NCBI GenBank assembly: GCA_017893485.1
Contig: CM030362.1
Span: 181,682,175-181,746,174, forward strand
Length of the DNA stretch: 64,000 bases
Source of the DNA: Hemerocallis citrina
Taxonomy: Eukaryota > Streptophyta > Magnoliopsida > Asparagales > Asphodelaceae
Direction: 5' to 3'
This document shows positions 8,101 to 46,123 of the stretch, in pieces. Under the pieces are notes generated by a model. It was not told the DNA's origin and searched no databases. It saw only the letters and a list, made by a program, of their open reading frames with translations. Within the stretch, counting starts at the first letter, position 1. Every line of letters begins with the position of its first letter. The position numbers were made by a program, and so were the translations under genes.

Positions 8101-8103
8101 ACC

Positions 8104-9103: not shown

Positions 9104-9275
9104 TGATATGGGTCAGATGACGTGGCCCCTCCTGGGCCACCAGATCTCCTAAAAACCCGCTCTCCCTTGATCATCAGATCAACCAGAGCCTAGTGGATTT
9201 CTGCCATGTCAGGCCCACGAGCTAACGGTTCCAGACCCGCCCCAGCAGGATCCCAGACCCGTTTTTCCTGCCTAT
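9104..9275 (+). mobile_element. 5' LTR of D, left part
   Basis: It begins TGATATGGGTCAGATGACGT, matching 49596 onward. It stops at the target duplication cctat (9271-9275) of nested element A, exactly where the TATA box of D begins. The rest of this LTR resumes at 24345. Confidence 0.93.
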
Positions 9276-9873
9276 TGATATGGCTAAAAATAGGGTTAAA
9301 TCGGAACCGTCCAGATTGGGCACGAATCTTGATGCTCGGGGGTAAAAAGGTAATTTCACATACAAGTGGATCCAAAACGGGTATTGGGTCTCCTTCTCAC
9401 AGAACCAGCAACCCGCGAACGCATCCACTTTAACTGGGCACGGGTCCCGACCCGATACAACCCCAGTTCACCAAGAGGAGAATCAGGGCCATTGATTTGA
9501 CTAGATCAAATCAACAGGCCTGATTGACTCCCACCAGGGAATCAGGGGCTAATTTCCCAGAACAGAATAGGAGGATTTTCCTCCTGGCTGTTAGGCAGGA
9601 AATCAGGCCCGTAACCGTTCCAAAGGCGACTATAAATACAACCCCTCTACCACCGTGACCAGGTTAATCACTTTTTTCATCACTTAAGCTCTTTTCTTAA
9701 TCTTTCCTGATTACTGACAAGAGCGTCGGATGGTGCGTCGCCGGAATCAACCCCGGTGTTTCGCACTTCCTTGCAGGTCGCGGCAGGAGCAAGAAGGCGG
9801 AGTCAATTTTTCAGGTTCTTCTCGGACTCACAAATTCTATCTGTTTACCCCCACACCGAAATCAGCGGTAACA
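9276..9873 (+). mobile_element. 5' LTR of A
   Basis: It begins TGATATGGCTAAAAATAGGG and ends CAGCGGTAACA. A TATAAATAC box lies at 9631-9639. It is 598 bp, the same as the 3' copy. Confidence 0.95.
9631..9639 (+). promoter_or_regulatory. TATA box of the A LTR
   Basis: TATAAATAC lies 355 bp into the LTR and is conserved at the same offset in the 3' LTR (24097-24105). In the family it drives transcription of the genomic RNA. Confidence 0.7.
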
Positions 9874-9876
9874 GAT

Positions 9877-9894
9877 TGGCGCCGTCTGTGGGAA
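9877..9894 (+). other. Primer binding site of A
   Basis: TGGCGCCGTCTGTGGGAA lies 3 bp after the LTR. The first nine bases fit a tRNA ending ACGGCGCCA (such as tRNA-Asp), but the remainder does not fit that tRNA, so the primer is left open. Confidence 0.75.
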
Positions 9895-9941
9895 ACACAA
9901 CACGAACAGCCTCAGCCCCTTCTCCGTCGTCCTTTGCAGTC

Positions 9942-11849
9942 ATGCCTCCGAAGAAGGTCAGATCCAGAGGGTCAAACCGTGTGGCCAACCTCGCCGACCC
10001 GACGAATGAAGTCCCAGTCAATCCTATTCCTCAGTCCGACCTCCCTCCGCCGGCCCAGCAGGGCCCACCTCCTCCTCCCAAGCAGCAGCCCAACAATGGT
10101 CCGTCCGGTGATAACGGTCGGAAGGAGAAGCAGCCCCTCAATCCGGGCCATGTCTCGGTCCATAATGGGTCCTCGGACTCGATGGCTTCTCATCATCCCG
10201 ACCTCCGCATCACACTCCTGAACCGCCAGAAGGAAGACGACCTCCGCACCCATCTTGACGAGAGGCGGGCCCGAGAGGGAGCCTCCCGCCAGCGTCAGGG
10301 TGAGCGGTCCCCACGTCGCCGAGACGGCAGAAGGTCCCCGGACCGCAGAGGCCGAGCGGCGTCCCCCGAGCGCCGAAGAAGGAAGTCGCGTTCCCCCGGG
10401 GATCGGCGTCATCCGAGGGACCGAGAAGTGCCTATCATTCGGGCTGAATTCCTCCAATTTCAGGAGACCGTTCTACAGGCTCTCAACCTTCGGCAGAACG
10501 TCCAGAATGCACAGAGGGCTCCGATGCCCCCGAGGGACCCCAGTCCTTGCCGCCGAACCCGATGTCCTTCCCCGGCTCCCAGCCGCCAGCGGCAGCAACA
10601 CAGCCCTCGCCGATCCCAGGACTACCGGCGCCAGAGTCCGCGCTCCCCCTCCTATGAAGAGGAGTCCGAGGGGTCATACGATTACCAGCGAAGGGACGAC
10701 GCCCTCATCCGCCGTATCCACGAGGTGGAAAGGCGTATCGGCCGCATGGACAGGGAGGAGGAGTCCCGAGCAGGAACCTTCCGTCCCAGCCGAACCCCCC
10801 TTCTCACGGTCGATCATGGAGGCCCACATACCGAGGAGTTTCAAACCGCCACAGTTTGAGACATACTCAGGGGAATCCGACCCGGTCGATCACGTCGAAA
10901 GCTTCAAGACCCTGATGCTGATCCATCAAGCTTCCGACGCTGTGCTCTGCAGGACCTTCTCCGCCACCCTCAGGGGGTCGGCTCGGGAATGGTATTCTAG
11001 GCTCGCCCCCTCCTCCATCTTCTCATTCGAGCAGTTCGAAACACTGTTCATTACTCACTTCGTGAGTAGCAGGCGAGCCGAAAAGACAAGCCTCTCCCTG
11101 CTGAACCTGCGGCAGGAAAGGGAAGAGAAGCTGCGGGACTATGTGAAAAGATTCACCGCAGAGGTAAGGTCTATCGCCTCCTTAGACCAGTCGGTGGCAA
11201 CCGTGGCGTTCCAATCGAACGTCCTCAACGCCAACCTCCGATCGTCCCTAGCCAAGAAACCACCGCATGACTTCGCCGACCTCCTCCCGAGGTGCAAGAA
11301 GTACATCCGAGCAGAGGAGGCTGAAGCCCTTCCGAGCTTCGGAGGGCCCTCCGCGGGGTCGAAGAGGAAGGCGACGGGGGAAGAGGGGTCCAAGAAAGCT
11401 CAGAAGGACAATGGCGGTCAGCGTCGCGCTCCCCCCAGGTTCGAGAAGTTCACTCCCCTCACCACCAACGTCTCTACTATCCTGATGGAAGTGGAGAAGG
11501 AGGGGGTCATCCCTCCAGCTCCGAGGATGCACACCCCGGCAAAGAGGAGGAACAAAGATAAGTGGTGTCGTTACCACCGAGACCACGGCCACGACACGAA
11601 CGACTGCCGGGCCTTGAGAGATGAGATTGAAGCCCTCATCCGGAGGGGGCAGTTGGCCAAGTTCGTGAAGGCGAACGATCGGGCGGATCGCAATTCTCCT
11701 CCGGCTCGGGGGGCTAACAAGTGCTCCGAGCGGCGCGAGGAAACACCCGAGTTCGAGGAGGAAAAGATTCTGCACCTGATCCATGGAGGCCCCATGGGGG
11801 GCTCCTCTAATACCTCCCGGAAGGCCTTCGTCCGAGAGGTCAACTCGGT
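9942..11849 (+). pseudogene. gag: gag of A, frameshifted
   Basis: The start at 9942 (MPPKKVRSRG) is the first ATG after the primer site and corresponds to the gag start in E. Residues about 1-110 are Pro- and Gln-rich. Residues about 115-155 and 205-245 are rich in Arg-Ser pairs, like an SR domain. The capsid domain follows (FKPPQFETYSGE near 10845, then REWYSRLAPSSIFSFEQF near 10990). A zinc knuckle C-X2-H-X4-H-X4-C lies at 11566-11607. The first frame ends at 10859. A run of six C at 10795-10800, one more than the downstream frame needs, separates the N-terminal part from the capsid. This is either a single-base mutation, a sequencing error or a slippage site. In the family, Gag forms the cytoplasmic particle. 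Confidence 0.9.
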
Positions 11850-13041
11850 TCACAGTGCTCCTCCTCCCAAAGGTCTCGGCGTCCCTGTATCTTTCTTCGA
11901 TGCCGACCTCGAAGGGGTCCGAACCCCACACTGTGATGCCCTCGTCATCGACCTCCGCATAGCCAACTTCAAGGTGCAGAGGATTTTGGTGGACAACGGG
12001 AGTTCGGTCAATATCCTTTTCCTCTCGGCCTTCCGAGGCCTGCAGCTGTCCCAAGACCGTCTCAAGCCGGCCGGTTACACACTCCACGGGTTCACGGGGG
12101 TCCCGGTAACCGTCGAGGGGGTGATAACCCTAGACGTTACTGCGGGAAGCACCCCTACTACCCGGACCGAGCCGATGGACTTCATGGTCGTCGACGTCCC
12201 GGCAGCGTATAATGTCATTCTAGGCCGTCCCGGCCTAGCCGCCCTGGAGGCTGTCCCCTCGGCGTATCATTTGAAAATGAAGTTCCCCACTCGGTCGGGA
12301 GTAGGGGAAGTCAGGGGAAGCCAAGAAACAGCCCGGAAGTGCTACATGACTTCCACCGGGGGACCAGTGCTCTCGCTCGAGACACTAGAAATCCCCGAGC
12401 CGAAAGCTCGGCCGACGTCCGAACCGGCGGACGAGTTAGAAGAAGTGCTCTTCTCGGACGAGGACCCGAGCCGGAAGTTCCTCATCAGCCGGTCCCTGCC
12501 GACCGCACTGTGCTCGGACCTGATCCAATGCATCCGGGATAACCGTGACTTGTTCGCTTGGTCGGCCGCGGACATGCCCGGCATTTCCAAGGAGCTGCTC
12601 GTCCATCGCTTGAGTGTCGAACCGGGGTGCAAACCGGTCCAACAGAAGAGGCGAAAGTTCGCTCCCGAGCGACAGCAGGCCATCAAAGAGGAGGTGGATA
12701 AACTGCTGAAGGCCAAGTTCATACAGGAGGTAAATTACCCCGAGTGGCTGTCGAATGTTGTAATGGTCAAGAAGTCCAATGGCTCGTGGAGAATATGCAT
12801 CGACTTCACCGACCTGAACAAGGCGTGTCCGAAGGACCCATTCCCTCTCCCAAACATCGACACCCTTATTGACGCCACCTCGGGCCATGAGTTCCTCAGC
12901 TTCATGGATGCCTTCTCAGGGTACAATCAAATCCGAATGTTCCCTCCGGACATCCCGAAGACCTCCTTCGTCACCGACCAAGGCCTCTACTGCTACCGGG
13001 TAATGTCGTTCGGCTTGAAGAACGCAGGTGCCACCTACTAG
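11850..13041 (+). pseudogene. pol: pol of A: protease and N-terminal reverse transcriptase
   Basis: The frame is open from the capsid through here without a break, so gag and pol lie in one frame apart from the C-run. The aspartic protease signature ILVDNGSSVNI has its catalytic Asp at 11992-11994. The linker PADELEEVLF follows, then the RT palm and fingers (KKSNGSWRICIDFTDLNKAC near 12770-12830, FMDAFSGYNQI near 12902, YRVMSFGLKNAGATY near 12995). The frame ends at TAG 13039-13041. At that codon D encodes Gln in an otherwise identical context, so a C-to-T change at CAG is the likely cause. Confidence 0.92.
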
Positions 13042-14382
13042 CGCCTCGTCAACAAGATCTTCCAGAGCCAGATTGGCCGAAACATGGAGGTGTACGTTGA
13101 CGACATGCTCGTCAAAAGCGTCCGAGGCACCGATCATGTAGCCGACCTCCAGGAGGCCTTCGGCGTGTTGAGGAAGCACAGCATGCGGCTGAACCCGAAC
13201 AAGTGTGCGTTCGGGGTCACCTCGGGAAAATTCCTCGGCTTCATGGTAAGCCAGCGAGGAATCGAAGCTATCCCCGAGAAGATTAAGGCCATATTAGACA
13301 TGGCCCCGCCTCGGAACATCAAGGAGGTGCAGAAGCTCACCGGTCGGCTCGCTGCTATCGGTCGTTTCCTCTCGAAGTCGAGGGAAAAGTGCCTTCCCTT
13401 CTTCAAAGCACTCAGGGGGGCTAAGGGTTTTGAATGGGGCCAACCACAACAGGAATCGTTCGACCAGTTGAAGGCATACTTGGTGAACCCCCCTCTGCTC
13501 AGCAAACCGGTCCCGGGCGAGACCCTCTTCGTCTATTTGGCTGCTTCCGAGCAGACATTGAGTGCTGTCTTGGTGAGGGAGGAGGATCGAACTCAAAGGC
13601 CTATCTACTACGTGAGCAAGGTGCTCCGGGACGCCGAGCTCCGTTATCCGAAGATAGAGAAGATGGCCTACTCTCTAGTCACGGCGGCGAGGAAGCTTCG
13701 GCCCTATTTTCAGTCCCACTCCATCGTCGTCCTCACTGACCAACCCCTAAAGCAGATCCTCTACAAGCCCGAGACCTCGGGTCGGCTAATGAAGTGGTCC
13801 ATAGAGCTGAGCCAGCATGACATCACTTACCAGCCTCGGACAGCGATTAAGGCACAGGCGCTCGCCGACTTCATCGTGGAGTCCACTATCCCTGAGGTCG
13901 AACACATTCCGAATGGACCTCCCATTTGGACAATCTTCGTGGACGGATCCTCTTGTAATGAAGGAAGCGGCGCTGGCATCATTCTGAATGGCCCTGACGA
14001 CTTCGTCCTCCAGTACGTGATCCGTATGAACTTCAAGGCTTCGAACAACGAGGCGGAGTACGAAGCACTCATCGCTGGCCTCGGACTTGCACGAAGCGCT
14101 GGGGCGCAGCGCCTCCGAATCCATAGCGATTCCCAACTCGTCGTGAACCAAGTCTTGGGCGAGTACGAAGCTCGAGATGAGCGGATGGCAAAGTACCTTG
14201 CTAGGGTTCGGGATCTCATGGGCCGGTTCGAGGAGGCGCTCATCCAACGGGTTCCTCGGGAAGAAAACTCACAGGCCGATGCCCTCTCCAAATTGGCCTC
14301 GTCCTCACTTCAAGGTCTCGAACAGACCGTGCTGATCGAAGTCCTCTCTAAGCCGAGCATCGAAGACGAGATACCTGGCTAG
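13042..14382 (+). pseudogene. pol: pol of A: RT catalytic core, RNase H and second RNase H
   Basis: This continues in the same frame directly after the stop. YVDD, the RT active site, is encoded at 13093-13104. The RT thumb and first RNase H follow ([35 protein letters not shown]). From about 13925 comes a second RNase H with its acidic residues in [21 protein letters not shown] and [11 protein letters not shown], then [14 protein letters not shown]. Two RNase H domains are the known mark of the Tat lineage. The frame stops at TAG 14380-14382, before the integrase. Confidence 0.92.
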
Positions 14383-15681
14383 GCGGAAGCGTTGCCGGTC
14401 ATGCTACAAGATAACTGGATGAAGCCTTTGGTGGAATTCCTAAGGGACGGGCTCCTGCCCGAAGACCCCAAAGAGGCTCGCCGAGTTAGAACCCGGGCCG
14501 AGCGGTATGTCTTAATCGAGGGCATCTATACAAGCGCTCTTTCTCTCAAATAGACGGCCGACCGTACCTAAGGTGCCTCTCTCCGATCAAGCCGAATATG
14601 CCCTAAAAGAGCTCCACGAAGGCATCGGAGGGGCACACTCAGAATTTAGGTCCTTGGCCCGGAAAGCTTTGAATTATGGGTACTTCTGGCCGACCCTCCT
14701 TCAAGACGCCGAGCGACACGTTCGGCGATGCAGCTCCTGCCAGAGACACTCGAACATCCGACGCCTCCCTTAGGCCAACCTCGCCTCCTTATCATGTCCC
14801 ATCCCCTTCGCAATGTGGGGGCATGGATTTGCTAGGACCCTTCCCTCCGGCTCCGGGTCAGTTCAAGTTCTTAGTCGTGGCCATCGACTACTTCTCGAAG
14901 TGGGTCGAGGCCGAGCCCCTCGCCACTATAACCGAGAACAAAGTGATACAGTTCTTCTGGAAGAGCATCATATGCAGGTTCGGCGTCCCCCGTGTCCTCA
15001 TAACGGACAACGGGAACTCAGTTCACAGGCGCAGCATTCCGAGCTTTATGCGACGACCTGGCTATTCAGCAGCGCTTCTCGTCCGTCTCCCACCCTCAGT
15101 CGAACGGACAGGCAGAAAATGCCAACCGGCAGATCCTCGCAGGCATCAAGAAAAGGTTGGACAAAAGTTCCAAGGGCTTATGGGTCGACCAACTCCCCAA
15201 CATCCTATGGAACTACCGCACGAGCAAGCGGACCCCCACAGGCGAGTCCCCTTTCAACCTCACCTATGGGTCCGAGGCCGTGATACCGCTCGAGGTCGGA
15301 ATACCTTCCCCCCGGCTCACAGCCTATGACGAAGCACAGAATGCCAGGGACCTCAGAGCAGACTTGGACTTAATAGACGAGCTGAGGGAAAGGGCGTCGA
15401 TTCGGCAGCAGATCTACCGAAGAAGAGTTGAATTAGCGTACAACAAAAGGGTCCGACCCGCCAACCTTAAGCAAGGAGATTTGGTCTTGAGGAAGCTAGC
15501 CATATCCTTCCCCAGTCAGAAGGGCAAGCTGGCTCCGAACTGGGAAGGGCCGTACAGGATCACAAAGGTGGTTCGGCCCGGAACATATCGCCTCGAAGAC
15601 CTAGAGGGCAGAGAGCTTCCGAGGACCTGGAATGCCGACCACCTCCTAAAATACCAAGAAAGCGCTCCGGCGCCACTCTAA
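14383..15681 (+). pseudogene. pol: pol of A: integrase, broken
   Basis: The HHCC zinc finger is at about 14600-14740 (LHEGIGGAH and CSSCQRHS). The core begins near 14822 (GMDLLGPF), carries the second Asp in LITDNG near 15000 and the Glu in NGQAENANR at 15115-15117. The GPY/F motif (NWEGPYRI) is near 15541, and the protein ends at the stop 15679-15681. No chromodomain follows. Breaks seen: stops near 14550 and 14565, TAG at 14771, a frame change between zinc finger and core, and an extra base just after LITDNG near 15013. The family enzyme inserts element cDNA into the genome with a 5-bp stagger. Confidence 0.9.
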
Positions 15682-15856
15682 GTATCATGGAGTATCGAGC
15701 CATTCCAGTCCTCCGACTTGTAACCCATTTTTCATAAATTGTACTATGTAAAACGGTTCGCCGTCAATTATCAATAAAGAAAGCTCTATTATGTTTGTGA
15801 ATTCGCATGTTTCTATCCCCTCTTATAACCTACTTTTTAAATTGTGATTTCGACCA

Positions 15857-16293
15857 ATGGTTCGGAGTCCACGTTCGGCTCGGCCTCATCCCCTCGGCTC
15901 GTCTCTGGACGGACAAGGGGTAGACCGTCGTTCCGAACTGCTCCCACAACCGTTGAACTACAACGATGGTTCGGAGTCCAACACTCGGCTCGACTTTACC
16001 TCCTTGGCTCGTCTCCGGACGAACCAGGGTTAGATCGCCGTTCGGAATTGCTCCCACAACTGTTGAACTACACCGATGGTTCGGAGTCCAACACTCGGCT
16101 CGACTTTACCTCCTCGGCTCGTCTCCGGATGAACCAGGGGTAGATCGCCGTTCGGAATTGCTCCCACAACCGTTGAACTACACCGATGGTTCGGAGTCCA
16201 ACACTCGGCTCGACTTTATCCCCTCGGCTCGTCTCCGGACGAACCAGGGGTAGATCGCCGTTCGGAATTGCTCCCACAACCATCGAGCTACAA
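15857..16293 (+). repeat. Four tandem 110-bp repeats in A
   Basis: Units starting ATGGTTCGGAGTCCA begin at 15857, 15966, 16076 and 16186 (109, 110 and 110 bp), and a fifth degenerate start lies near 16295. They lie in the 3' region between pol and the antisense genes. Hypervariable 3' regions with tandem repeats are known for this lineage. Confidence 0.9.
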
Positions 16294-16295
16294 AA

Positions 16296-16923
16296 ATGGT
16301 CACAGGGTCCAGCACTTGGCTCCCAGTCCGTTCAAGCTTCTCCATAAGATCTATGCCGGAGCGATCTTGGCCATGTAATCCGAGCGATCTTGGCCACTTG
16401 CCGAAGACCGAAGCCCTACGTCTCCGGTCGGCCACCGACCAAGTGCCTTCCCGAGCTCACAAACGGAGAAAACTCACTTTCTCCTCAACTTTCGTGCATG
16501 ATCTCGATCAGACGGCTCAGATCTGGCCACCTGCGCTAAACGACAAGATAGCATTTTCTTGGGAACTGAGCCGCCTCGAAATTCGTGCCAACACCCAACG
16601 GCTCAGATCTTGCCACCGACACTAAACGACAAGATAGCACTTTCTAAGGGACAGAGCCGCCTAGGAACTCGTGCCGTACCTTGTCAGAGTCGCTAAACGA
16701 CAAAACACTGTACTCATGGGAACCCGTTCGGTCCAAATACTCTCGCCGACGGAACTAACACACTCGGCCCAAGGACCTCGGCACGACCAACACAATTATA
16801 AGCAAGACAAATATGCAGTGCAATGAAAGATATTTTATTAAACAATCAGACCTCAATACAAAACACATGATTACAAAGTGTTTGGAATCAAAATACACAA
16901 CGCCGACCCACTACACTTAGCCC
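16296..16923 (+). repeat. Outlying copy of the 223-bp repeat of A, and antisense gene 3' end
   Basis: The stretch 16380-16640 (for example AAGTGCCTTCCCGAGCTCAC, then CTAAACGACAAGATAGCA) matches the repeats at 22432-23340 in the same orientation, on the other side of the antisense genes. Near 16829 the minus strand has AATAAA-type signals shortly beyond the antisense stop at 16924. No gene is seen here. Confidence 0.7.
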
Positions 16924-17355
16924 TCATATGGAAAAATCTTCACTGGACTGTTCGGCCGACTGTTCGTCCTCCTCGGCTGGTAGCTCCCCTGCACCGTTCC
17001 GGAGCTTCGCTACCACAATTTGCAAGTGTTGAATCTCCGAGAGCAAATCATCCCGCTCGGCTATGACCTTCGACTGGTTGTGCCGAATACACTTGACCCG
17101 AAGAGCGTTGCTGAATGCGGTTTGCGAGTCCTCGTCCCCCTCTGCAGGGTTCAGCTCGGCGATCCTATCCTCCAGACGCTGGATCTCGGCTTCCCTTAGG
17201 TCGAGGACGGACAAAAGGTGAGCCCGCTCACCCTCAGCCCGGCGTAACTCCAGCTCGACGCTCCTAAGACTCAGAGCCGTCGTCCCAGAAGAGGCTCCAG
17301 ATTCAGAGTCATCATCCGAGCCGTAAAGATCAGCATATGAATCGGACGCCTCGAG
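16924..17355 (-). CDS. Antisense accessory gene 2 of A, last exon (coiled coil)
   Basis: On the minus strand the exon starts after a clear acceptor (CCATTTTTCAG at 17356 and upstream) and runs to the stop at 16924, giving about 143 residues. It is acidic at the start (YGSDDDSESG), then a coiled coil with heptad spacing (ELRRAEGERAHLLSVLDLRE, EIQRLEDRIAEL, ERDDLLSEIQHLQIVVAKL), and an acidic tail. I do not recognise a named family. Position and strand fit the extra ORFs known from Tat elements. The exact donor of the previous exon is uncertain. Confidence 0.55.
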   Translation of the reverse strand, partial: LEASDSYADLYGSDDDSESGASSGTTALSLRSVELELRRAEGERAHLLSVLDLREAEIQRLEDRIAELNPAEGDEDSQTAFSNALRVKCIRHNQSKVIAERDDLLSEIQHLQIVVAKLRNGAGELPAEEDEQSAEQSSEDFSI

Positions 17356-17518
17356 CTGAAAAATGGGGAAAGCAAACAACAAGATTTCAATATACTTCTG
17401 AGGCACCACACTTGAAGAATTTTCCAATCATATTCAGACATAATGGTTCCACAATACAACAAGACCAAGTCTACAACAACGTTTTACAACAAATCAGAAG
17501 GGACACGAAGCGACATAG

Positions 17519-18358
17519 TCAGGTCCTCTTCGGAAAAGGAACACTTCGGTTTAAGGAAACACGAGGACGACGAGGCCTGCCCTCCGAGCTCGATCCTAAA
17601 CCAACGAAGCGCGACCCCCCTTCGCTGCTGACTCTAACAGCGGCGCCGACCGAGGCCCCGCTTGACGAGACGGTCGCACTGCTCTGAGCGTCGGCTGGAC
17701 TCCGTATGGTCACAGGCGAGCGTGTCGCGAGTTCGTAAAACGTAATCCCCCTCTCGCTCTCTTCACGAGTGCACGACGTGCTACGGACATTAGCCCTCTC
17801 CGGCGCAGGCTTGAGCGACGCGACCTCTTCCTCCAGTTCAATGATTCTGTCTCTCAAAACGTCGTCCTTCGTCGTCTTCTTCGGACGAGAGGGTCTTGAC
17901 GAGCCAGAGACGGTGGCGCCATCGGTCGCAAGCCGTCGGAAATGGGTGACCTCGATCCCCCTATCTATCGTGATCCTTCTGAGCCTATCGACTTCGGCCA
18001 ATAGCCTCTTGCGCTCGGTCGATGCCTTCTCCAGCTCGGAAGTCAGTTTCTCTTCCGCCGCCGAGCGTTCCTTCCCCGCTAATTCCAAGTGTTGGACCTC
18101 GGCCAAAAAGTCGTCATTCTTCTGCTCGGCGGCAGTAAGCTCCCCACGGAGCCGCTCGACTTCCCCTTCGGGACAAGGAGCTTGGGGGTACTTCCGCAGT
18201 TGCCACAGCTCGCGATAGTACCTCCGTAGAGCTGCCCTCGTCTCCTCCAGTTGGCCGAGCAGGAGAAACCGCCTCTGTCGGCTGTCCGAGAGCTCACGCT
18301 TCGTTTTGGCCAGCTCCTTCCGAAGGTAGACAACCTCCGTGATCGGACCGAACTTCAC
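17519..18358 (-). CDS. Antisense accessory gene 2 of A, coiled-coil exon
   Basis: The minus-strand frame is open for about 280 residues after the acceptor CTGCTTTTCAG at 18359-18369. Long Leu/Glu/Arg heptads dominate (LRKELAKTKRELSDSRQ, GQLEETRAALRRYYREL, EEKLTSELEKASTERKRLL), followed by a Ser/Lys-rich stretch and a second short coil (IIELEEEVASLKP). The C-terminal 100 residues are low complexity. The true 3' end may be a splice donor before 17519. No enzyme motif is visible. A structural or nucleic-acid-bound role is possible but unsupported. Confidence 0.5.
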   Translation of the reverse strand: MKFGPITEVVYLRKELAKTKRELSDSRQRRFLLLGQLEETRAALRRYYRELWQLRKYPQAPCPEGEVERLRGELTAAEQKNDDFLAEVQHLELAGKERSAAEEKLTSELEKASTERKRLLAEVDRLRRITIDRGIEVTHFRRLATDGATVSGSSRPSRPKKTTKDDVLRDRIIELEEEVASLKPAPERANVRSTSCTREESERGITFYELATRSPVTIRSPADAQSSATVSSSGASVGAAVRVSSEGGSRFVGLGSSSEGRPRRPRVSLNRSVPFPKRT

Positions 18359-18572
18359 CTGAAAAGCAGAGATAAATCCGATACCCAACACTCGGAAACA
18401 TCTACGACTAGTCACACACAAATCCGAAGCTCAACACTTGGACAAATTTTGGCCAAACAAAATGTTTTTCATTCAAAATCGAGGTGAAAGTTTTACACAA
18501 GCGGTGGCCAGTCCGCAATGAGGCTTACAAAAAGAAAACAAAACAATAAAAGACTAAAAGAAGACAACCGAG

Positions 18573-19286
18573 TCAGGGGTCGACCTTTTTGCCGTTCGGG
18601 TCCGTCGACCCCCCGGTCTTGTCCTCGCCATCGCCCTCGCCTCTGCCTTCACTCCAACTCTCCTTCCCGGAGTCATCCTCCTCCTCGCCCTCGGCTTCGT
18701 TCTCCCCAGGGCCTTCGACAGGTTCCGTCTCTCCCTCGGGGCCGAGCAAACACTCGGTAATCCCTTCCTCCCCTTCCACAGGGTCATAAAAATGATAAGA
18801 GGACGTGTCGAAGCCCGGGTTCTTGGCGGCTATGTGGAGCAGGGCTCGACCGTAGGCATCCTCCATGTTCTGGATCATGTGCTGCGCGGCCTCCTCCTGC
18901 ACGGCCTTCCTCACCTTCTTCACCTTCTTCAGGTGTTTGGCCTTGATCTTCTCGGCCCTCTTCCGAGCCGTCTCCGCTTCCGACCGAGCCTTGGCCAGTG
19001 CCTCCTTCAGCTCGGCAACCTCTTTCTCCGCTCCCGACCGAGCGTTGGCCAGCTCCTTCTTCAGCTCGGCTGCCTCCTTCTCAAGCTTGGCCGCCGTCTC
19101 CTTCGACAGCTGAATGGCGTCGGCCAGCTACTTCTCCAGGCCCCCCACTACAGCAGCCCTCTTCGTCGAGAGAAGCTGCTCGGCATCAAGCTGCTGCGCG
19201 ACCTTGACGCGCTCCGCCCTCTCCCGCTCTTTCTCCCGCTCCTTGTTCGCCAACTCCTCGACCAGGAAGTTGAAGTGGCAGAGAGT
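18573..19286 (-). pseudogene. Antisense accessory gene 1 of A, exon 3 (coiled coil)
   Basis: The minus-strand exon begins after the acceptor TCTCTTTCAG and ends at the stop at 18573. It encodes a long Ala/Glu/Lys coiled coil (KEREKERERAERVKVAQQL, KLEKEAAELKKELANARSG, AEIKEAL-type heptads) and a strongly acidic tail (NEAEGEEEDDSGKESWSEG). An in-frame TAG near 19127 interrupts the coil, so this copy is broken. The matching exon in D is 43919-44404, which shares the coil-then-acidic-tail layout but little sequence. The minus strand past the stop holds the block GCGGACTGGCCACCGC, found also after the D exon. Confidence 0.65.
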
Positions 19287-19378
19287 CTGAAAGAGAACAA
19301 CACGTTAAAATCCGAACCCAAGAACTTAGAAAAATTCTAAGGAAGAAATTTGGATGAAGGAGGGCTCGGCCCACTTAC
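19287..19378 (-). other. Intron 2 of antisense gene 1 in A
   Basis: The donor is TCG/GTAAGT at 19379/19378 and the acceptor is TTTCAG/ACTC at 19287/19286, on the minus strand; length 92 bp, AT-rich. D has the same donor context (CTCTCG/GTAAGTG) at 45672/45671. Confidence 0.65.
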
Positions 19379-19935
19379 CGACATAGTATTCCGAGCAATC
19401 TGCATCACGGCGTCCCCTGCCATCCCGGCCTTCAGGGTCGCTCGATCCTTCGGGGTCGGCAGGTGCCTCACCGCCTCCATGCAGATGTTCCCGTCGCCCA
19501 AGAAGCCGTCGACGTTCATCACCTGCCAGTTGGGGACGAAGATCTGCTTATGACGCTCGGTCAAGATCTTCTCCGCATCGGCAGTGAGGGGTGGAACATG
19601 GAGGGACAACGCCTCCTTCGCACCGAACACACCGCTCGACGAGCCGGGAGCATCTCCCTTCGAGATCGGTGTCGGCACATCCGAGGTCGGAGGGTCGAGG
19701 ACCGGCACATCCGAGGTCGGAGGGTCGAGGACCGGCGCATTCGAGGTCGGAGGGTCGAGGACCATGGCTTCCCCCTCCGCGAGGACCATGACCTTTGGCT
19801 GGTCGGCAACCTTCGCCACCGAAGGCTTCTTCGTGGCTCGGCTGTCCTGAGGCGCCGCCGAAGGCCTCTTCTTCTTCGCCTCCTGCTCTGACCTACCCTT
19901 CGCCACCAAAGCTTTGTAATCCAGCTTCATCGTAC
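19379..19935 (-). CDS. Antisense accessory gene 1 of A, exon 2
   Basis: The exon is open throughout (about 186 residues). It starts MKLDYKALVAKGR two codons after the splice junction, is Lys/Ala-rich, holds three imperfect copies of an 11-residue unit around VLDPPTSDVP, and then a conserved block (PNWQVMNVDGFLGDGNICME, DRATLKAGMAGDAVMQIARN). The D counterpart at 45672-46123 shares the basic N-terminus (RRADQEKK) and the block around PDWGVKVGDNMLEGPVALE. The function is unknown. It is part of the extra ORF typical of Tat elements. Confidence 0.65.
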
Positions 19936-20011
19936 CTGCACGAGCCGGATGAAGAAACTTAGAAAAATTTTCATGGACTTTAAACAAAGAATATAAATAC
20001 CAGAAGCATAC
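19936..20011 (-). other. Intron 1 of antisense gene 1 in A
   Basis: The donor is CCTA/GTATGC and the acceptor is CGTGCAG/GTACG on the minus strand; length 76 bp. Splicing keeps the frame across the junction. The D copy has CCTA/GTATGT at the same codon. Confidence 0.7.
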
Positions 20012-20990
20012 TAGGGTCGATCGGACTGAGACCCCCTCGGAACAGTTCCTCCTCGGTAATATCTTTCCAGCTTAGCGCTGGCAAGGCGAGGAGCTTCCTC
20101 TGGATCTCCGCCTCCTCATCACTCAGCGGTGCCTCCCTCTTGGTCCGCTTGGGCAGACCCTCCTTCGCCCAAACCGTCGGTATCACCCACGGCGCAGGGG
20201 CTCGGATGAGGAAGTACTTCTCCTTCCAATGTTTGATCGAGTCCGGATTCTTGATCAGCTTCATGCCCGTCCGGGGCGAAAGAAAGAACCTTTGTTCGTC
20301 TCGCCTCGGCTGACAAGGTCGGTAGAGGCTCCGGAAGAGGAACATAGTCGGCTTGCCGCCGACTTCTTGGCATCGGAGGACGAATGCCGTGACGTGCCTC
20401 CATGTGTTCGGCATCAGCTGGGCGGGGCTCAACCCGTACCATGTCAACACATCCACAACGAACGGGTGGAGGGGAAACCGGAGTCCGGCAATTAGGGAGT
20501 CGACCGGAAAGACGCACACGTCCGACGAGGACTTTGTGTTGGCTCGGAAACCCGGCCCAAGGAGGAGCAGCCCGTAGTCGGCGGGGATCCGGAAACCCTC
20601 TCAGATCAGACGAAGGTCGGTCTCGGTAAGTGACGAGATGGTGTGGTCCACCTCGGACAGTTCCCTCGGCTCGTTCTCCTCAACCTGCTTAGCCGTGCCT
20701 TGGGTGACTCTCTCCAAGGTACCCTCGTCATAGTCCCGGACGCCTCCCACGCTCGACAGGACGATAGGCTGCCGACCGAACGCCCCCGCTCTCTTCGGCG
20801 TTTCCACTATCGTGACCACGGCTTTACCCTTTCGGGACGCCGCCATGACCTCCTCGGGTAGCTCGGCCATTTCGCCCTCTTTGTCCGGACGAACAACGTC
20901 CTGCTCGCTCGGCTCCACTACTCCCTTCCCTTTATCCCCTAGGCCAACGGCTTGCTCCGAGGCGGGGGTCTCATCCGTAATCTTAACCAT
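20012..20990 (-). pseudogene. Antisense accessory gene 1 of A, exon 1 (Transposase_28-like)
   Basis: The start at 20990 (MVKITDETPASEQ) lies about 190 bp after a minus-strand TATA box. Residues about 1-130 are charged linker. The second half carries the domain described in plants as putative gypsy-type transposon (Pfam Transposase_28): RFPLHPFVVDVLTWYGLSPA near 20440-20500, then DSIKHWKEKYFLI near 20210-20250. An in-frame TGA at 20601-20603 interrupts it, so this copy is broken by a single stop. The exon ends at the donor CCTA/GTATGC. The biochemical role of this domain is not known. Confidence 0.75.
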
Positions 20991-21182
20991 TTTTCCTAAA
21001 AGAGAAGGGAAAGAGACTGACCTTGAAGTGACATGTGCGGTCGGAAAGTTCGCCGGAAACAATGAACACTACTGCGACAGCTAGCAACGCCACCAGAAAG
21101 CGGAAAACTTTGAAGGCAAAGTAAAAACTGAAGAGAGAGAGTAAAAGTGAAAAATGATGCTTGGTCTAAGAGGGGGGTGAAG

Positions 21183-21189
21183 ATTTATA
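21183..21189 (-). promoter_or_regulatory. Probable TATA box of the antisense gene in A
   Basis: On the minus strand ACTATAAATCTTCACCCCCC lies about 195 bp before the start codon at 20990. The D copy has a matching but altered sequence (TTGTAAATC then a C-run) at 47655-47680, in the same place relative to its gene. This suggests an own promoter running against the LTR transcript. Confidence 0.55.
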
Positions 21190-22431
21190 GTAAAAAGGAA
21201 CGTCCCTTGGACTTCCAAACGAAAGTTCGTGACTTTTGGGCTGCTCTCGAAACGTCGCAAAGGCCCATCACCACTGCCTTCCTCGCCAAGTCAGCTAGTT
21301 CGGCGCAATGGGATCGGAATCCGAGCAAGTGCCTTCCCGAGCCTGCAAACGGGGAAAACTTACTTTCATCCAGCGGCTCGGGTTGCACCACATCGCTCGG
21401 ACGACTGGACCCTCGGACGCCCCACCTATGTCTAAAGGAACCGGAAAAAGTTTTGATTCACAGCTTTAAGGCACCGCCCTCGGCGAGCACCCCCCGGGCC
21501 CTGTTCTCGGTCGGTATCCCGCCGACCCACGGGCCCGGTCAAAAACAGATCGGCACTCCCCCCGTCTCTAACTCCTCCGAGTTGACATTCGTTAGAAGCT
21601 ATCAGCCCGGAAGGAAGACAGAGATGGGAGGGGGCCTATCAACACCCGGAGATCGGAAGAAGCAAACCATTCCGAGCCAGTCGATTGCAACTGCAAAGGT
21701 TCGGCATGCTCTGGCAACCGCGCCTTCACAGTTGCAAACAACTTGCCCGGAACGCCCTTCATTTCTTCCGGAAGAACGACCGCTCGTCCTTCCGACGAAC
21801 TCACCCCTCGGACTCGGACATGGATGATCACCTCTCCCGCCAAGATCTCTGCCGACCCTGACAAGAGTAGGCAGAAGATCTTGGTGGGAGAACGACCACC
21901 CGTCCCTCCGAAGCAGCTCACACCCCGGGTCCGGACTACGGTCGTCGCCACTACTGCCTCATTCTCTCCCGCTCCTGACATCCCCTTCGGAACCGTAAGG
22001 AATGGGAGAAGAACAAGGCAACAGGGCAACCACCCGTCCTTCCGAAGTAACTCATCCCTCGGGTCCGAACCATAGTCGTCACCACTACTGCCTTATTCCA
22101 CCCCGCTCCTGACATCCACTTTGGGGCCGTCAGGAACGGGAGAAGAAAAAGGCAAAAGAGCGACAACCCCCTCGGACCTCGAAAGACAAGTTACCCAAGG
22201 CCAATGCCCCCGAAGTTTGAAACTCTACATTTGGTGCGATTGAAATGACAAAGGGAGTGGAGTACTTATAAGCTCCCCTCCAAGGTCCAGCCATTATGAC
22301 CCTCGGAATTTGAAACGCCACGCATTAATTGAAGGAGTTGTCCTTAATGAACTTGGGAAAATGGAACGCCGCGCGAACACAGAAGCACCATTAATGCCCT
22401 TGGGAACAAGATCGTCTCGAGACAGAGTACG
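21190..22431 (+). other. Non-coding 3' region of A upstream of the antisense gene
   Basis: No protein is seen on either strand. Three degenerate tandem copies of about 120-133 bp occupy about 21775-22160 (blocks like CGTCCTTCCGAAGTAACTCA at 21780, 21900 and 22033). The rest is unique sequence that shares short pieces with the 223-bp repeat. Confidence 0.6.
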
Positions 22432-23340
22432 CCACATCGCTCGACCTGCCGAGACCGCCTGTCTCCGGACGGATTCCGAGCAAGTGCCTTCCCAAGCTCG
22501 CAAATGGGGAAAACTCACTTTCCCCTCAAGAATCACGCCTGATCTCGATCAGACGGCCCAGATCTCGCCGAGGACACTAAACGACAAGATAGTGTTTTCT
22601 TGAAAAATGCGCCCGCCTAGAGATGCGCGCCGTCATCCAACGGCTCAGACTGCGCCACGTCGCTCGTCCTGCCGAGACCCCTTGTCTACGGTCGGATTCT
22701 GAGCAAGTGCCTTTCCGAGCTCGCAAACGGAGAAAACGCATTTTCTCCTCAACTTTCGCGCATGATCTCAATCAGACGGCCCAGATCTCGCCGAGAACAC
22801 TAAACGACAAGATAGTGTTTTCTTGAGAAATGTGCCTGCCTAGAGATGCGCGCCGTCATCCAACGGCTCAGACTGCCCCACGTCGCTCGTCCTGCCGAAA
22901 CCCCCTGTCTTCGGTCGGAAGCCGAACAAGTGCCTTTCCGAGCTCGCCAAACGGAGAAAAAAAGTGTCCGAGACCCCCTGTCTCCGGTCGGATGCCGAGC
23001 AAGTGCCTTCCCGAGCTCGTAAATGGAGAAAAAAAGACACCGAGCTACTACGACCGTTGGATCTTTTAGAAATTCACGCTCCTAATGATGAACGGTCCAG
23101 ATTGAGCGCCGAGGTCACTAAACGACAAGATAATGTTTTCTTGGGAAACGTGCCGCCATCGGATGGCTCAGATTGCGCCACGTCGCTCGGATCGCCGAAC
23201 CCCCTAGTCTCCGGTCGGCAGCCGAGCAAGTGCCATTCCGAGCTCGAAAATGGAGAAAAAAGACGCCGAGCGATGGAGACCGTCAGATCTCCCAGAAAAT
23301 CACGCTCGACGATGATCAGAGGTCCAGATTGCGCCACACC
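22432..23340 (+). repeat. Four tandem 223-bp repeats in A
   Basis: The block CCACGTCGCTCG recurs at 22432, 22655, 22878 and 23178 (223, 223 and 300 bp; the third unit contains a short internal duplication). Each unit holds CTAAACGACAAGATAGTG. They precede the polypurine tract of A. Confidence 0.88.
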
Positions 23341-23725
23341 ATAAATCAGTATTAAAAATCGTTTTTTATTTATTTAATTCGTTTTATTTATTTAAAAATT
23401 GCGAAAAAATTGCAAAAAAATTCGGGAAAATTAATTAAAAAGTTTGACTGTTTTTTGAGCCCCTGAATAAACAATTATTGCCTAGAATGTACAGTTAAGG
23501 CCCCCGAACAATTAGTAAACACATCGCAAAATTAAATAAATAATCCGAGAAAAATAGATGAAAGACGCCAAATACTCGATAAGGCTGGAGAACAACACAT
23601 GGCATCAAAAAGTTACCTCACTACCCCCTTCGAGATTCTAAGTCCACCATATGGACTCCGATACAACTCCACTAGCACACAAAACAGTCAAACTACTCCT
23701 CAAAGACTGATCACGCTCAATCTTT
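23341..23725 (+). other. AT-rich spacer before the polypurine tract of A
   Basis: About 385 bp with no ORF and no repeat that I can see. It leads to the polypurine tract. Confidence 0.6.
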
Positions 23726-23741
23726 AGGAGTGGGGGGCTCG
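23726..23741 (+). other. Polypurine tract of A
   Basis: AGGAGTGGGGGGCTCG abuts the 3' LTR. In the family it primes plus-strand DNA synthesis. Confidence 0.8.
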
Positions 23742-24339
23742 TGATATGGCTAAAAATGGGGTTAAATCGGAACCGTCCAGATTGGGCACGAATCTTGATG
23801 CTCGGGGGTAAAAAGGTAATTTCACATACAAGTGGATCCAAAACGGGTATTGGGTCTCCTTCTCACAGAACCAGCAACCCGCGAACGCATCCACTTTAAC
23901 TGGGCACGAGTCCCGACCCGATACAAGCCCAGTTCACCAAGAGGAGAATCAGGGCCATTGATTTGACTAGATCAAATCAACAGGCCTGATTGACTCCCAC
24001 CAGGGAATCAGGGGCTAATTTCCCAGAACAAAATAGGAGGATTTTCCTCCTGGCTGTTAGGCAGGAAATCAGGCCCCTAACCGTTCCAAAGGCGACTATA
24101 AATACAACCCCTCTACCACCGTGACCAGGTTAATCACTTTTTTCATCACTTAAGCTCTTTTCTTAATCTTTCCTGATTACTGACAAGAGCGTCGGAGGGT
24201 GCGTCGCCGGAATCAACCCCGGTGTTTCGCACTTCGTTGCAGGTCGCGGCAGGAGCAAGAAGGCGGAGTCAACTGTTCAGGTTCTTCTCGGACTCACAAA
24301 TTCTATCTGTTTACCCCCACACCGAAATCAGCGGTAACA
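23742..24339 (+). mobile_element. 3' LTR of A
   Basis: It is 598 bp and differs from the 5' LTR at nine positions by eye. The TATA box is at 24097-24105. It is followed directly by the duplicated target cctat, which restores the TATA box of D. Confidence 0.95.
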
Positions 24340-24344
24340 CCTAT

Positions 24345-34490: not shown

Positions 34491-34492
34491 GA

Positions 34493-42590: not shown

Positions 42591-43314
42591 GGCCCTTTGG
42601 GATTCCGGCTCTCCTCCCTACCCAAAAATTTTCATTAAGATTTAGGGCGCTCGCCTTCGGCAAGCGCCCCGAGTCCCGAACCTTGGATCGGCACACCTCT
42701 CACCCATTGACAACACGGGGTAAACGGCCCCCAGAGCCGAAACCCCGAATTGTCAGAGGGTGGCAGGAGAGCTACCGATCCGAGACTCTTGGCCAAGAAT
42801 TTCATTTTTGGGGTGCCTGCCTTCGCAGGCAACCCGAACTTTGCCCCCGGGATCGACTCACCTCTCACCCTCTGACAACTCGGGGTTAACGGCCCAAGGA
42901 GCCGAAACCCCAAATTGTCAGCGGGTGGCAGGTAAGTCACTGACAATTCTTGGTGGACAACTGATAAGGGGTGGGGGTTATATAGCCCCCTGGAGAGGCG
43001 CGTTTATGATATCAGGGAGTCCAAACGGCGGAAGATGAAACGTCTCCATCAATGTTTATCAGAAGGCGAAACGTCCCTTATTAAATGATACCTGCAAGGA
43101 ATAACGGTTCGGCTCCCAAGCAAATCCAGGCTCGACAATGGTCTCGAGCTAAGCCCCTACCGATCTTTCTTAACAAGTTATCAAAGTAAAGAAATCGAAG
43201 TTTTATTACTCATGGAGCGCCAGAAACGGCCACACAATACAATGAAGATATTACAAATCGCTCGGCTTAAAACTCGAACTCAGTGCTTCCTACTGGACCC
43301 TCCGCGTGCTCCGC
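42591..43314 (+). other. Non-coding stretch of D after the array
   Basis: A degenerate repeat of about 170 bp is seen twice (GGGGTAAACGGCCCCCAGAG near 42718 and GGGGTTAACGGCCCAAGGAG near 42884). No gene is supported. Confidence 0.55.
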
Positions 43315-43770
43315 CTATCCGACTAATAAGGATGTCCCGACAATGGAGCTCTGCACGTTGGCGGGCCTCGCCATTTCCAGATAAAAAGTCGGAGAAGGAC
43401 CCAATACGGAATGACTTGCTCCCTCGAATGGACCGGTGGCTAGCATGAGCTTCAGCCTCCGAATCACCAACTCCTTCTCTACAACAGCCTCGTGAAGAAA
43501 GGACTCTGAAGCCGATCGCCCGGTGGAGGCATCCAAGATTGACTAGCTCGTCTTAACTCTCCACCAGTCCCGGTTGGCTATGGCCTTCTTCCGGCGAGTG
43601 ACCTCTATGCTGAGTTCCTTAGACTTGTTCATGAAACAATTCACCGCAGCCTCTCGATCGTGTGCTTGCTTATGATGGCGAGCCAGCACACTCTCCTTGG
43701 ACCCCAGCTCATTTCGGAGCTAGGAGACCTCGGTAGAACAAAGGTCGGCGCCGAGGGCCTCATGCGTCTA
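43315..43770 (-). pseudogene. Antisense accessory gene 2 of D, remnant
   Basis: On the minus strand two charged open pieces are joined by frame breaks: an upstream part with LRNELGSKESVLARHHKQAH, and a downstream part with ESFLHEAVVEKELVIRRLKL. Heptad-like spacing suggests a coiled coil. The location downstream of gene 1 matches gene 2 of A (16924-18358), but sequence similarity is weak and the assignment is mainly positional. Confidence 0.4.
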
Positions 43771-43918: not shown

Positions 43919-44404
43919 CTACTTTTTAGAGGGGGACGACACCTCTTCATCAACATGGTCGCCCCCAGCCTCCTCCTGGTGAGGGTCCCCCATCTCCTCC
44001 TCCTCGCCACCGGGCGTTGGCAGATGCACGGGAAGCCGCCAGTTGTAGTGGAGGTGGTCGACCCGAGCGTCTGGGTAGACCTGCAAGAAGTGCTCCTTGG
44101 CCTTGGCATAGGCCTCGTCATGGGCCAAGATCAGAGTGTCCGCCATGGTGATCTGCATCTCCACCATGGCAATCTGCATCTTCTCAACCTCTGCCTGGGC
44201 CTTAGCCCAAAAGTGCGCCAGCTCATTCGCATGACGGTCTTGCAGCGAAGCCATATGAGCTTGGTAGACCGCCTGGGATGACTGGGCCTCCGTCAGCTCG
44301 TCTTTCAATTTTGTCGCCTCGCGGAAGTATTTCTCGGTGTTCTTCTTCTCGACAAGGATCTCCTTCTCCAAGCCCTTGTGAAAGTGCTGCCCATGAAGCA
44401 AAGC
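43919..44404 (-). CDS. Antisense accessory gene 1 of D, exon 3 (coiled coil)
   Basis: The minus-strand frame is open from an acceptor-like GGCAAAG at 44405 to TAG at 43919-43921, about 160 residues. A coiled coil (LEKEILVEKKNTEKYFREAT, DRHANELAHFWAKAQAEVE) is followed by an acidic tail (GGEEEEMGDPHQEEAGGD). Order and position match exon 3 of A. The intron before it contains a Harbinger-like MITE. Confidence 0.6.
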   Translation of the reverse strand, partial: ALLHGQHFHKGLEKEILVEKKNTEKYFREATKLKDELTEAQSSQAVYQAHMASLQDRHANELAHFWAKAQAEVEKMQIAMVEMQITMADTLILAHDEAYAKAKEHFLQVYPDARVDHLHYNWRLPVHLPTPGGEEEEMGDPHQEEAGGDHVDEEVSSPSKK

Positions 44405-45671: not shown

Positions 45672-46123
45672 CGAGAGCTGCACCTGAGCCCACCTCATGT
45701 AGGCCGTTGCGGACGTCTCTATTGCCAGAGCCATCCGATCTCGCTCTGTGGCGAGATGCTCCACCACCTCTAGTGCCACTGGGCCCTCGAGCATGTTATC
45801 CCCTACCTTGACCCCCCAATCCGGGGTGTGCGGCCTCAGGCCCTGCTTGCCCACCATTTGCTCGGCGCTGGGGCGAAGTGGCGGGAGCCCCTTCTCCAAG
45901 ACCTCGGCCACTTTCCTGCTACCAGAGCTCGCCTCTGGTTCCTTTGTCGACCTCGACGTGTGGTGGTTCTTCTTCGTCCTCTTCAGGGACGGCTCCATAG
46001 GCACTGAGGTCGGCCCTTTACTAGAACCCGCGGCCGAGGTAGCCTTCTTCTCCTGATCGGCCCTCCTCTTGGTGGCTATGGCCAGCAGGGCCTGTCGGTT
46101 GTCGAGCTGCTTGGCAGACATCT
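45672..46123 (-). CDS. Antisense accessory gene 1 of D, exon 2
   Basis: The exon starts after TTTTTGTAG and reads MSAKQLDNRQALLAIATKRR from its first full codons. It continues through a basic Ser/Thr-rich part to a block with PDWGVKVGDNMLEGPVALEV and an Ala-rich end (ETSATAYMRWAQVQLS) at a GTAAGT donor. It is open throughout. The counterpart in A is 19379-19935. The function is unknown. Confidence 0.65.

Follow-up and report, generated by a model that had tools for sequence, protein, structure and literature searches.

The window, a 64,000-nucleotide stretch of Hemerocallis citrina DNA, holds an LTR retrotransposon (element A) that bears an antisense split gene. Sequence comparison across many copies indicates that natural selection has preserved both the places of its introns and the protein it encodes. 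The region probably represents an accessory gene that a Tat/Retand LTR retrotransposon carries antisense to gag-pol and that is spliced, with a TRP28 head and alternative last exons. The promoter, splicing and protein function of this gene are predictions. The preliminary description had noted that extra antisense ORFs are known in Tat elements, and the antisense TRP28 ORF is indeed a published Retand hallmark (PMC11963269).

Element A occupies 9276..24339 on the plus strand, within the 5′ LTR of an older element (element D), and has a 5-bp target repeat, CCTAT, at each end. Its 598-bp LTRs (9276-9873 and 23742-24339) have nine differences between them. The gag-pol part (10222..15681, plus strand), delimited from Pfam matches and the ORF list, contains Retrotrans_gag, RVT_1, RT_RNaseH and RVT_3 and is interrupted by stops and frame changes. 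RVT_3 (PF13456) follows RT_RNaseH (PF17917) at 13042-14379; this match, which we take to be a second, archaeal-type RNase H (aRH), was counted as the Tat-lineage mark. PMC6317226 gives aRH as marking the Tat lineage. The LTRs, the target repeat and a gag-pol with reverse transcriptase and RNase H agree with a Tat/Retand assignment, as does a TRP28 ORF that lies antisense between pol and the 3′ LTR. Vicient 2025 (PMC11963269) records an antisense TRP28 ORF in this position for 97% of the Retand clusters with recent activity. The LTR length falls within the published Retand range (315-1,194 bp), and the 8,060 bp from pol to the 3′ LTR and the 13,868-bp internal region exceed the published 2,933-6,566 bp and 7,380-12,869 bp (PMC11963269). 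Twenty copies were examined; one had no pol match, and pol was on the opposite strand in 19/19 copies in which both pol and the gene were found. A host gene in the flank is ruled out by the target-repeat-bounded element.

Exon 1 of element A (20012..20990, minus strand) begins with an ATG at 20990 and encodes the TRP28 domain at about 20513-20313. The Pfam check bore out the earlier suggestion of a Transposase_28-like domain, with PF04195 (Transposase_28, TRP28) scoring 60 bits (E=2.6e-16), where the curated cut-off is 26.2. Intron 1 (20011-19936, minus strand) is 76 bp long, lies in phase 1 and reads CCTA/GTATG...GCAG. It is followed by exon 2 (19379..19935, minus strand) and by the 92-bp, phase-0 intron 2 (19378-19287, minus strand; TCG/GTAAGT...TTTCAG). 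Exon 3 (18573..19286, minus strand) encodes a Lys/Glu-rich part that is coiled-coil-like by eye, an acidic tail and its own stop. The 76- and 92-bp introns with CCTA/GTATG and CG/GTAAGT donors were thus located as first reported, and the reading frame is preserved across both. In-frame stops would be present if the introns were retained (both A introns and D intron 1). AT content is 59-72% in the three introns measured versus 38-45% in exons. GT-AG ends, AT-richness and the same position and phase in relatives mark these segments, at the level of sequence, as putative spliceosomal introns. The intron 1 site of A ranks unremarkably (donor 16 of 230, acceptor 12 of 350).

The region first described runs down to 16924; exon 3 ends at 18573, and two further coding exons, absent from the earlier three-exon description, occupy the remainder. 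Exon 4 (18358-17519, minus strand) and exon 5 (17355-16924, minus strand) each have a phase-0 acceptor, which ranks 2 and 6, respectively, among 350 AG sites, and each has its own stop. In this copy neither has an in-frame ATG, and across the family an in-frame ATG is missing from exon 4 in 13/37 covered rows and from exon 5 in 14/29. The first ATG in the other exon 4 rows falls at varied codons from 7 to 216 (most commonly 216, nine rows, and 19, six rows), and in the other exon 5 rows at codon 98 in 10, codon 25 in four and codon 143 in one. An ATG opens exon 1 in 35/35 rows, and the usual first ATG of exon 3 comes only at codon 137, downstream of a constrained head. Exons 4 and 5 lack a common start codon near their beginning, so splicing would be needed for them to be translated whole. 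A and D also share a non-coding stretch directly after the exon 3 stop (18491..18551, minus strand; score reached by 0/300 shuffles), which includes an identical 16-mer, GCGGACTGGCCACCGC, at 18516-18501. A-D similarity at the 3′ end was not beyond chance (22/300 shuffles). A possible poly(A) signal, AATAAA at 16834..16839, is the sole minus-strand AATAAA from 15700 to 21000 and is retained in 21/29 covered rows.

A TATA-like site, CTATAAATC (21182..21190, minus strand), is the sole minus-strand TATAAA between 15700 and 23741. Its start at 21190 is 200 bp from the exon 1 ATG, close to the roughly 195 bp given before for a minus-strand TATA. Shuffling the 500 bp upstream produces a TATAAA in 5.5% of cases, and the exact 13-mer is present in 31/35 covered rows. 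The match between A and D in the TATA and upstream region was not beyond chance, being reached by 32/300 shuffles.

For the A family, selection was measured over 45 rows (A itself and 44 copies, all from the same genome); for the D family, over nine. The dN/dS values for exons 1-5 of the A family are 0.18, 0.30, 0.30, 0.25 and 0.27, in each exon the lowest of the six frames, and for exons 1-3 the other antisense frames give 0.90-1.95. The preliminary description had proposed dN/dS across many copies as a test, and the result, 0.18-0.30, is not near 1. Exon 3 is constrained in both its head (0.32) and its tail (0.27). In exons 1, 4 and 5, variation at third positions is about two to three times that at first and second positions; in exons 2 and 3 it is nearly double. 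The terminal stops are retained in every covered row (exon 3, 44/44; exon 4, 34/34; exon 5, 29/29). These data support purifying selection on the antisense frame of the A family, and selection together with homology rules out chance ORFs. The splice sites are also retained, with GT in 40/40 and AG in 39/40 covered rows for intron 1 and GT in 43/44 and AG in 41/44 for intron 2. Other AG pairs in introns and spacers are similarly retained (14/17 in at least 90% of covered rows), and AG conservation within the A family is therefore weak evidence alone. Selection on an active product had been suggested earlier; the selection stands, and the A copy itself carries two premature in-frame stops, at 20603-20601 in exon 1 and 19130-19128 in exon 3. 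With these two stops in A and a more broken copy in D, the apparent split gene does not imply activity of either copy.

In element D the gene is interrupted by introns at both of the codons where A has them, with phases (1 and 0) that also agree. Its exon 1 remains (46196..47538, minus strand) are frame-shifted near 47060, hold a stop at 46592-46590 and score 22.3 bits against PF04195, under the cut-off of 26.2. Intron 1 (46195-46124, minus strand; phase 1) is 72 bp, as described earlier, and is followed by exon 2 (45672..46123, minus strand), with its phase-0 donor at 45671. A TAA-flanked MITE-like insert, whose ends were judged by eye, lies within intron 2 (44446..45627). Exon 3 (43919..44404, minus strand) has its own stop and an acceptor altered relative to its relatives. 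The 83-bp intron 2 reported for D needs correction: it ends at a CAG just before 44386, within the coding part of relatives. Two relatives without the insert (L050 and L054) have a 68-bp intron 2 that ends 18 nt earlier in register at an acceptor that is changed in D; of the two candidate acceptors for D exon 3, one ranks 24 and the other 178 among 352. A further coding exon (43267..43767, minus strand) has a phase-0 acceptor, identical in 5/8 D-family copies, and in-frame stops at 43722, 43545 and 43317. The plan of three exons common to A and D was correct as far as it went, with at least five exons in A and at least four in D.

Protein identity between A and D is 38%, 33% and 31% in exons 1-3, each scoring above all 500 shuffles, and the exon 1 and exon 2 alignments reach the last codon ahead of both donors. 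No A-D similarity was found in the intron 1 sequence. The D family has dN/dS of 0.16, 0.64 and 0.33 in exons 1-3; constraint on exon 2 is weak (0.64 versus 0.69-0.92 in shifted frames). Splice sites are retained in both families, fully or almost so in the A copies and with greater decay in the older D family. Significant protein similarity of A exons 4 and 5 to D itself was not found. Against D-family copies, the exon 4 score was reached by 7/200 shuffles in each of L049 and L054 and by at least 34 in the other three, and the exon 5 score by at least 42/200 in all five copies with the further exon.

Alternative last exons behind a single TRP28 head appear to be the best reading of this arrangement. 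In this probable reading, transcription would begin at a Pol II promoter near 21190 and yield an antisense pre-mRNA with its end close to the AATAAA at 16839. Exons 1 and 2 would be joined to a single last exon, chosen from 3, 4 and 5 in A and from 3 and 4 in D. Each last exon would supply a coiled-coil-like tail and its own stop, and the related proteins would differ in their tails. Introns would survive in the element because the sense genomic RNA, which is reverse-transcribed, holds them backwards and hence unspliced. The weakest step is the role of the proteins, which would most likely work in trans inside the nucleus, on chromatin or element DNA, in integration or transcription. In a more far-reaching form, held at somewhat less than even confidence, one antisense promoter and a TRP28 head (exons 1 and 2) would serve interchangeable last exons, and alternative splicing would let a single element make a small set of related nuclear proteins. 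In that form the antisense orientation would be what permits an intron-bearing gene to be inherited through an RNA intermediate. The spliced exon 1-exon 2 junction was found at 0 places in the 3.8-Gb genome in a scan without a positive control.

It is unlikely that all five segments are constitutive exons of one mRNA, with exon 3 cut at 18914 and joined to exon 4 and then exon 5. The donor at 18914 is in phase 0, ranks first of 230 donors and keeps its GT in 42/43 covered rows, and the exon 4 acceptor is also in phase 0. However, the exon 3 tail beyond 18914 is selected as protein and its stop is kept in all covered rows, no phase-0 site inside exon 4 is among the 25 best donors of A, and the 25 best donors of D include no phase-0 GT of D exon 3. 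Several independent unspliced antisense genes, as ORF-finding annotation assumes, with exon 2 beginning at its own ATG, are a clearly more improbable arrangement. An ATG is the second codon of exon 2 in 30/30 covered rows and adjoins the acceptor in D, the ATG at codon 137 of exon 3 is common, and Vicient 2025 (PMC11963269) counted antisense ORFs separately; yet exons 3, 4 and 5 begin with heads that are constrained as protein but lack a common start codon, A-D similarity breaks off precisely at the two donor GTs, and the introns hold in-frame stops.

A transcript that works as RNA, for example as dsRNA with the genomic transcript, and whose coding capacity is secondary is marginally less probable again. 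PMC7264820 raises this possibility for antisense transcripts and both elements hold the non-coding stretch after exon 3, but selection acts at the codon level, with more variable third positions in all five exons. Least probable, though by a small margin, is the capture of a host gene that travels as a passenger and whose host-like constraint would be due to descent alone. Host genes typically have introns, and retroelements can transduce genes (PMC7264820), but the constraint is found among copies within the element family, the gene is antisense to pol in all copies where both were found, and TRP28 similarity outside transposable elements is not reported (PMC11963269). A protein homology search with the TRP28 piece gave no matches, nor did one that used the 749-residue read-through product and was limited to TRP28; rapid divergence and the word filter probably explain this, and the absence is uninformative. 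The pol piece had 5,541 relatives in the same database, and among the 120 listed many come from named plants. No relatives were found in viral contigs, AlphaFold models of A and D pieces were poor (mean pLDDT 37.6), and solved structures gave no match (best E 0.76).

Element A resembles published Retand elements in its TRP28 ORF antisense to gag-pol and in the adjacent antisense ORFs, annotated there as Smc-like (PMC11963269). In that paper these are single ORFs and the word intron is absent from the text, whereas A has exons with conserved introns and its adjoining coiled-coil-like ORFs resemble last exons of the TRP28 gene. Conserved introns or a multi-exon plan for such a gene were not found in the accessible literature. 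Grande gene23 is likewise an antisense accessory gene in a long 3′ internal region; according to PMC7264820, which summarises a 2013 study, it has its own promoter, and its antisense transcription and the nuclear location of its protein were established by experiment, whereas the A gene is predicted from sequence with a TATA-like site.

Two further systems are relevant: Ogre belongs to the Tat lineage, and the antisense HBZ of HTLV-1 is spliced. Ogre carries a sense-strand spliceosomal intron (Steinbauerova et al. 2008, as cited in PMC12786077) that serves a sense subgenomic RNA, whereas the A introns lie on the antisense strand and would be invisible to genomic RNA. HBZ is mentioned alongside the Retand ORFs (PMC11963269) and, like the proposed A product, is an antisense nuclear accessory protein of a retroelement; no sequence relation is claimed. 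The HTLV antisense promoter lies within the 3′ LTR (PMC7264820), whereas the TATA-like site of A is internal.

Should the gene prove to be spliced, surveys based on ORF finders overlook a large part of the protein, and any single ORF that is cloned would be a fragment. If the alternative-tail reading is true, many Retand antisense ORFs listed separately would be exons of one gene. The antisense orientation would have a simple explanation, in that this is the one direction in which introns outlast reverse transcription. The constraint on individual exons, measured over tens of copies, suggests that the product matters for the spread of the element. With the exact junctions given, this familiar yet unexplained kind of accessory gene becomes directly testable.

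Element A, a Tat/Retand-type LTR retrotransposon, spans 9276-24339 with gag-pol on the plus strand, LTRs of 598 bp with 9 differences between them, and a 5-bp target repeat (CCTAT) on either side. It sits within the 5' LTR of element D, a diverged relative, and splits the D TATA region (9271-24344); D is therefore the older element, and its LTRs are 90.9% identical over 350 aligned bp. The gag-pol of A encodes Retrotrans_gag, RVT_1, RT_RNaseH and, as a second RNase H, RVT_3. Pol is separated from the 3' LTR by 8,060 bp, and the minus strand of this region holds the antisense gene. The 54-bp arrays of D (29430-30750 and 47800-49420) flank later insertions, a 219-bp array lies at 29688-30747, and direct repeats at 31067-42328 spaced ~4.5 kb (90-97% identity) and ~7.8 kb (93-96%) apart are perhaps a nested element or a tandem duplication inside D. 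ORF content, judged by eye, places a minus-strand Tat-like gag-pol at 1-8361, a LINE-like reverse transcriptase at 50335-53047 and a copia-like pol at 61862-63735.

The three-exon, two-intron plan of the preliminary description was confirmed in A. On the minus strand, exon 1 (20990-20012) contains the Transposase_28 (TRP28) domain, as had been claimed, and is joined through intron 1 (20011-19936, phase 1) to exon 2 (19935-19379) and through intron 2 (19378-19287, phase 0) to exon 3 (19286-18573), with the frame kept across both introns. The A copy is broken by in-frame stops at 20603-20601 and 19130-19128. The gene extent first proposed, 16924-21189, takes in two further minus-strand exons that had been left undescribed, exon 4 (18358-17519) and exon 5 (17355-16924). 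Exons 1 and 2 of D end at the same aligned residues as those of A, with phases 1 and 0; the 83-bp D intron 2 of the earlier account uses an acceptor 18 nt further in than that of relatives. D exon 1 carries a frame shift and a stop. A MITE-like insert with inverted ends starting GGGGGCGTTTGGTA and TAA flanks was located by eye in intron 2 of D (44446-45627). Coding tandem repeats are present in D exon 1 (48 bp, acidic, 47180-47347) and A exon 2 (30 bp, 19673-19763).

Local alignments of the A and D proteins scored 408, 111 and 92 for exons 1-3 versus best scores of 55, 59 and 66 in 500 shuffles. In a six-frame comparison the top match was antisense in both elements, with 169, 51 and 45 bits for exons 1-3 and only 77 and 56 bits for the plus-strand shadow frames of exon 1. 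The A-D dN/dS components (Nei-Gojobori) of exons 1-3 were 0.67/2.04, 0.95/1.55 and 0.76/1.96, which are rough values with dS near saturation. A simple splice-site score with unfitted weights ranked the A exon 3 acceptor 1/350, the intron 2 donor 3/230, and the phase-0 acceptors of exons 4 and 5 2/350 and 6/350; the A intron 1 sites were weaker (donor rank 16, acceptor rank 12). The D donors ranked 1 and 7 of 226 and the D exon 2 acceptor 2/352, and the two candidate D exon 3 acceptors ranked just 24 and 178.

Selection was measured in copies from the 3.78-Gb genome that is the source of the window. The A TRP28 piece gave 55,360 loose candidates, and the best 150, which were scored, are 93-97% identical to it, A itself aside. 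Forty were sampled stepwise down approximately the first 121 ranks and joined by four of eight first-search loci (three others duplicated sampled copies and L001 was A), giving 44 copies plus A in 45 rows; partial rows were kept and counts refer to covered rows. Pairwise dN/dS was 0.18 for exon 1 (695 pairs), where selection of copies by TRP28 similarity biases toward low dN, and, for exons 2-5, which are free of this bias, 0.30 (741 pairs), 0.30 (946), 0.25 (741) and 0.27 (406). The gene frame had the lowest dN/dS of the six frames in every exon; the two remaining antisense frames gave 0.90-1.95, two plus-strand frames 0.89-1.74 and the plus-strand shadow frame 0.26-0.45. The third codon position was the most variable in all five exons, and 12.35% of compared sites differed in intron interiors. 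In-register stops occurred in 6/35, 2/26, 7/31, 4/36 and 5/29 well-covered rows for exons 1-5, a count to which insertions relative to A are invisible. These values support the proposed selection on an antisense product.

The splice sites are well kept in covered A-family rows: donor 1 is GT in 40/40 and acceptor 1 AG in 39/40, donor 2 is GT in 43/44 and acceptor 2 AG in 41/44, and the acceptors of exons 4 and 5 are kept in 39/40 and 30/30. Non-majority bases were rarer at the intron 1-2 dinucleotides (5/336) than in intron interiors (441/5,617; Fisher p 6e-7), and for the acceptors of exons 4 and 5 they numbered 1/140 versus 1,033/12,815 (p 2e-4). Most of the remaining AG pairs of these introns and spacers are likewise conserved, 14 of 17 persisting in 90% or more of the covered rows, and splice-site conservation is therefore supporting rather than decisive. 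A retroposed antisense mRNA could leave spliced genomic copies. The exon 1-exon 2 junction was found at 0 places in the genome with up to 3 mismatches, a result that speaks neither for nor against splicing.

An ATG opens exon 1 in 35/35 covered rows. In-frame ATGs are absent from exon 4 in 13/37 and from exon 5 in 14/29 covered rows; elsewhere the first ATG of exon 4 ranges from codon 7 to 216 (216 in 9 rows, 19 in 6) and that of exon 5 is codon 98 in 10, 25 in 4 and 143 in 1. The first ATG of exon 3 is usually codon 137, and the head before it has a dN/dS of 0.32. Fully covered rows end in TGA or TAA in exon 3 (43 and 1), exon 4 (28 and 6) and exon 5 (28 and 1). Exon 3 may be spliced from a possible internal donor at 18914 into exon 4, but the exon 3 tail behind this donor is constrained as protein (dN/dS 0.27). 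Because the copies have no common start codon near the beginning of these exons, each exon keeps its own stop and this tail is constrained, the sequences are best read as putative alternative last exons 3, 4 and 5 behind one head.

The D piece gave 44,759 candidate places, and the 150 that were scored are 76-92% identical to it, D itself aside. Eight 2.6-kb copies were sampled. Exons 1 and 2 were seen in 7/8 (L052 has exon 1 only) and exon 3 in 6/8 (absent from L051 and L052). Intron 1 has a GT donor in 5/7 and an AG acceptor in 6/7; the intron 2 donor is GT in 6/6, and in 4/6 a CAG acceptor directly precedes codons matching the A exon 3 start. This CAG is altered in D itself. Intron 2 is 68 bp in L050 and L054, counted by eye. 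In nine rows including D, dN/dS was 0.16 for part of exon 1 (36 pairs), 0.64 for exon 2 (28) and 0.33 for exon 3 (21), and 0.69-1.27 in shifted frames. Beyond exon 3, best-frame dN/dS was 0.31-0.48 in 4/5 windows and 0.52 in the last, the best frame changing once, between the first and second windows, and D and 5/8 copies have a further exon behind TTCTT(G/A)ATAG.

Among non-coding signals, a TATA-like 13-mer is identical in 31/35 and AATAAA kept in 21/29 covered A-family rows. Directly after the exon 3 stop, a stretch of 63 alignment columns is common to both elements (75%; 0 of 300 shuffles). Inside it lies an identical near-palindromic 16-mer, GCGGACTGGCCACCGC, at 18501-18516 (A) and 43864-43879 (D), and nowhere else in the window is it matched with 3 or fewer mismatches. 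It is exact in 34/45 A-family rows, gapped rows counted, and its core is in 2/8 D-family copies (exact pattern). As a guess, it might be a binding or 3'-end signal.

Antisense TRP28 genes are a known kind. According to Vicient 2025 (PMC11963269), 97% of Retand clusters carry antisense TRP28 ORFs, and 104 antisense ORFs are spread over 63 clusters; DNA binding was predicted there and a role in regulation suggested. Neumann 2019 (PMC6317226) found Transposase_28 in 23% of Retand elements. The antisense gene23 of the Grande retrotransposon is transcribed from its own promoter and encodes a nuclear protein, and a search for antisense and spliced transcripts was called for (Vicient and Casacuberta 2020, PMC7264820). 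Plant LTR elements are generally without introns, Ogre and EVADE being exceptions (PMC12786077). The word 'intron' is absent from the available text of Vicient 2025 (PMC11963269), and the open-access literature yielded no report of a spliced antisense gene in an element of this type; a multi-exon gene with predicted splicing would be a new form of the known kind. Gene structure and selection are the only parts established here, and a nuclear role is proposed as most likely: an accessory gene that would aid the element from the nucleus, its TRP28 head (exons 1-2) acting on DNA or chromatin and its coiled-coil tails permitting multimer formation.
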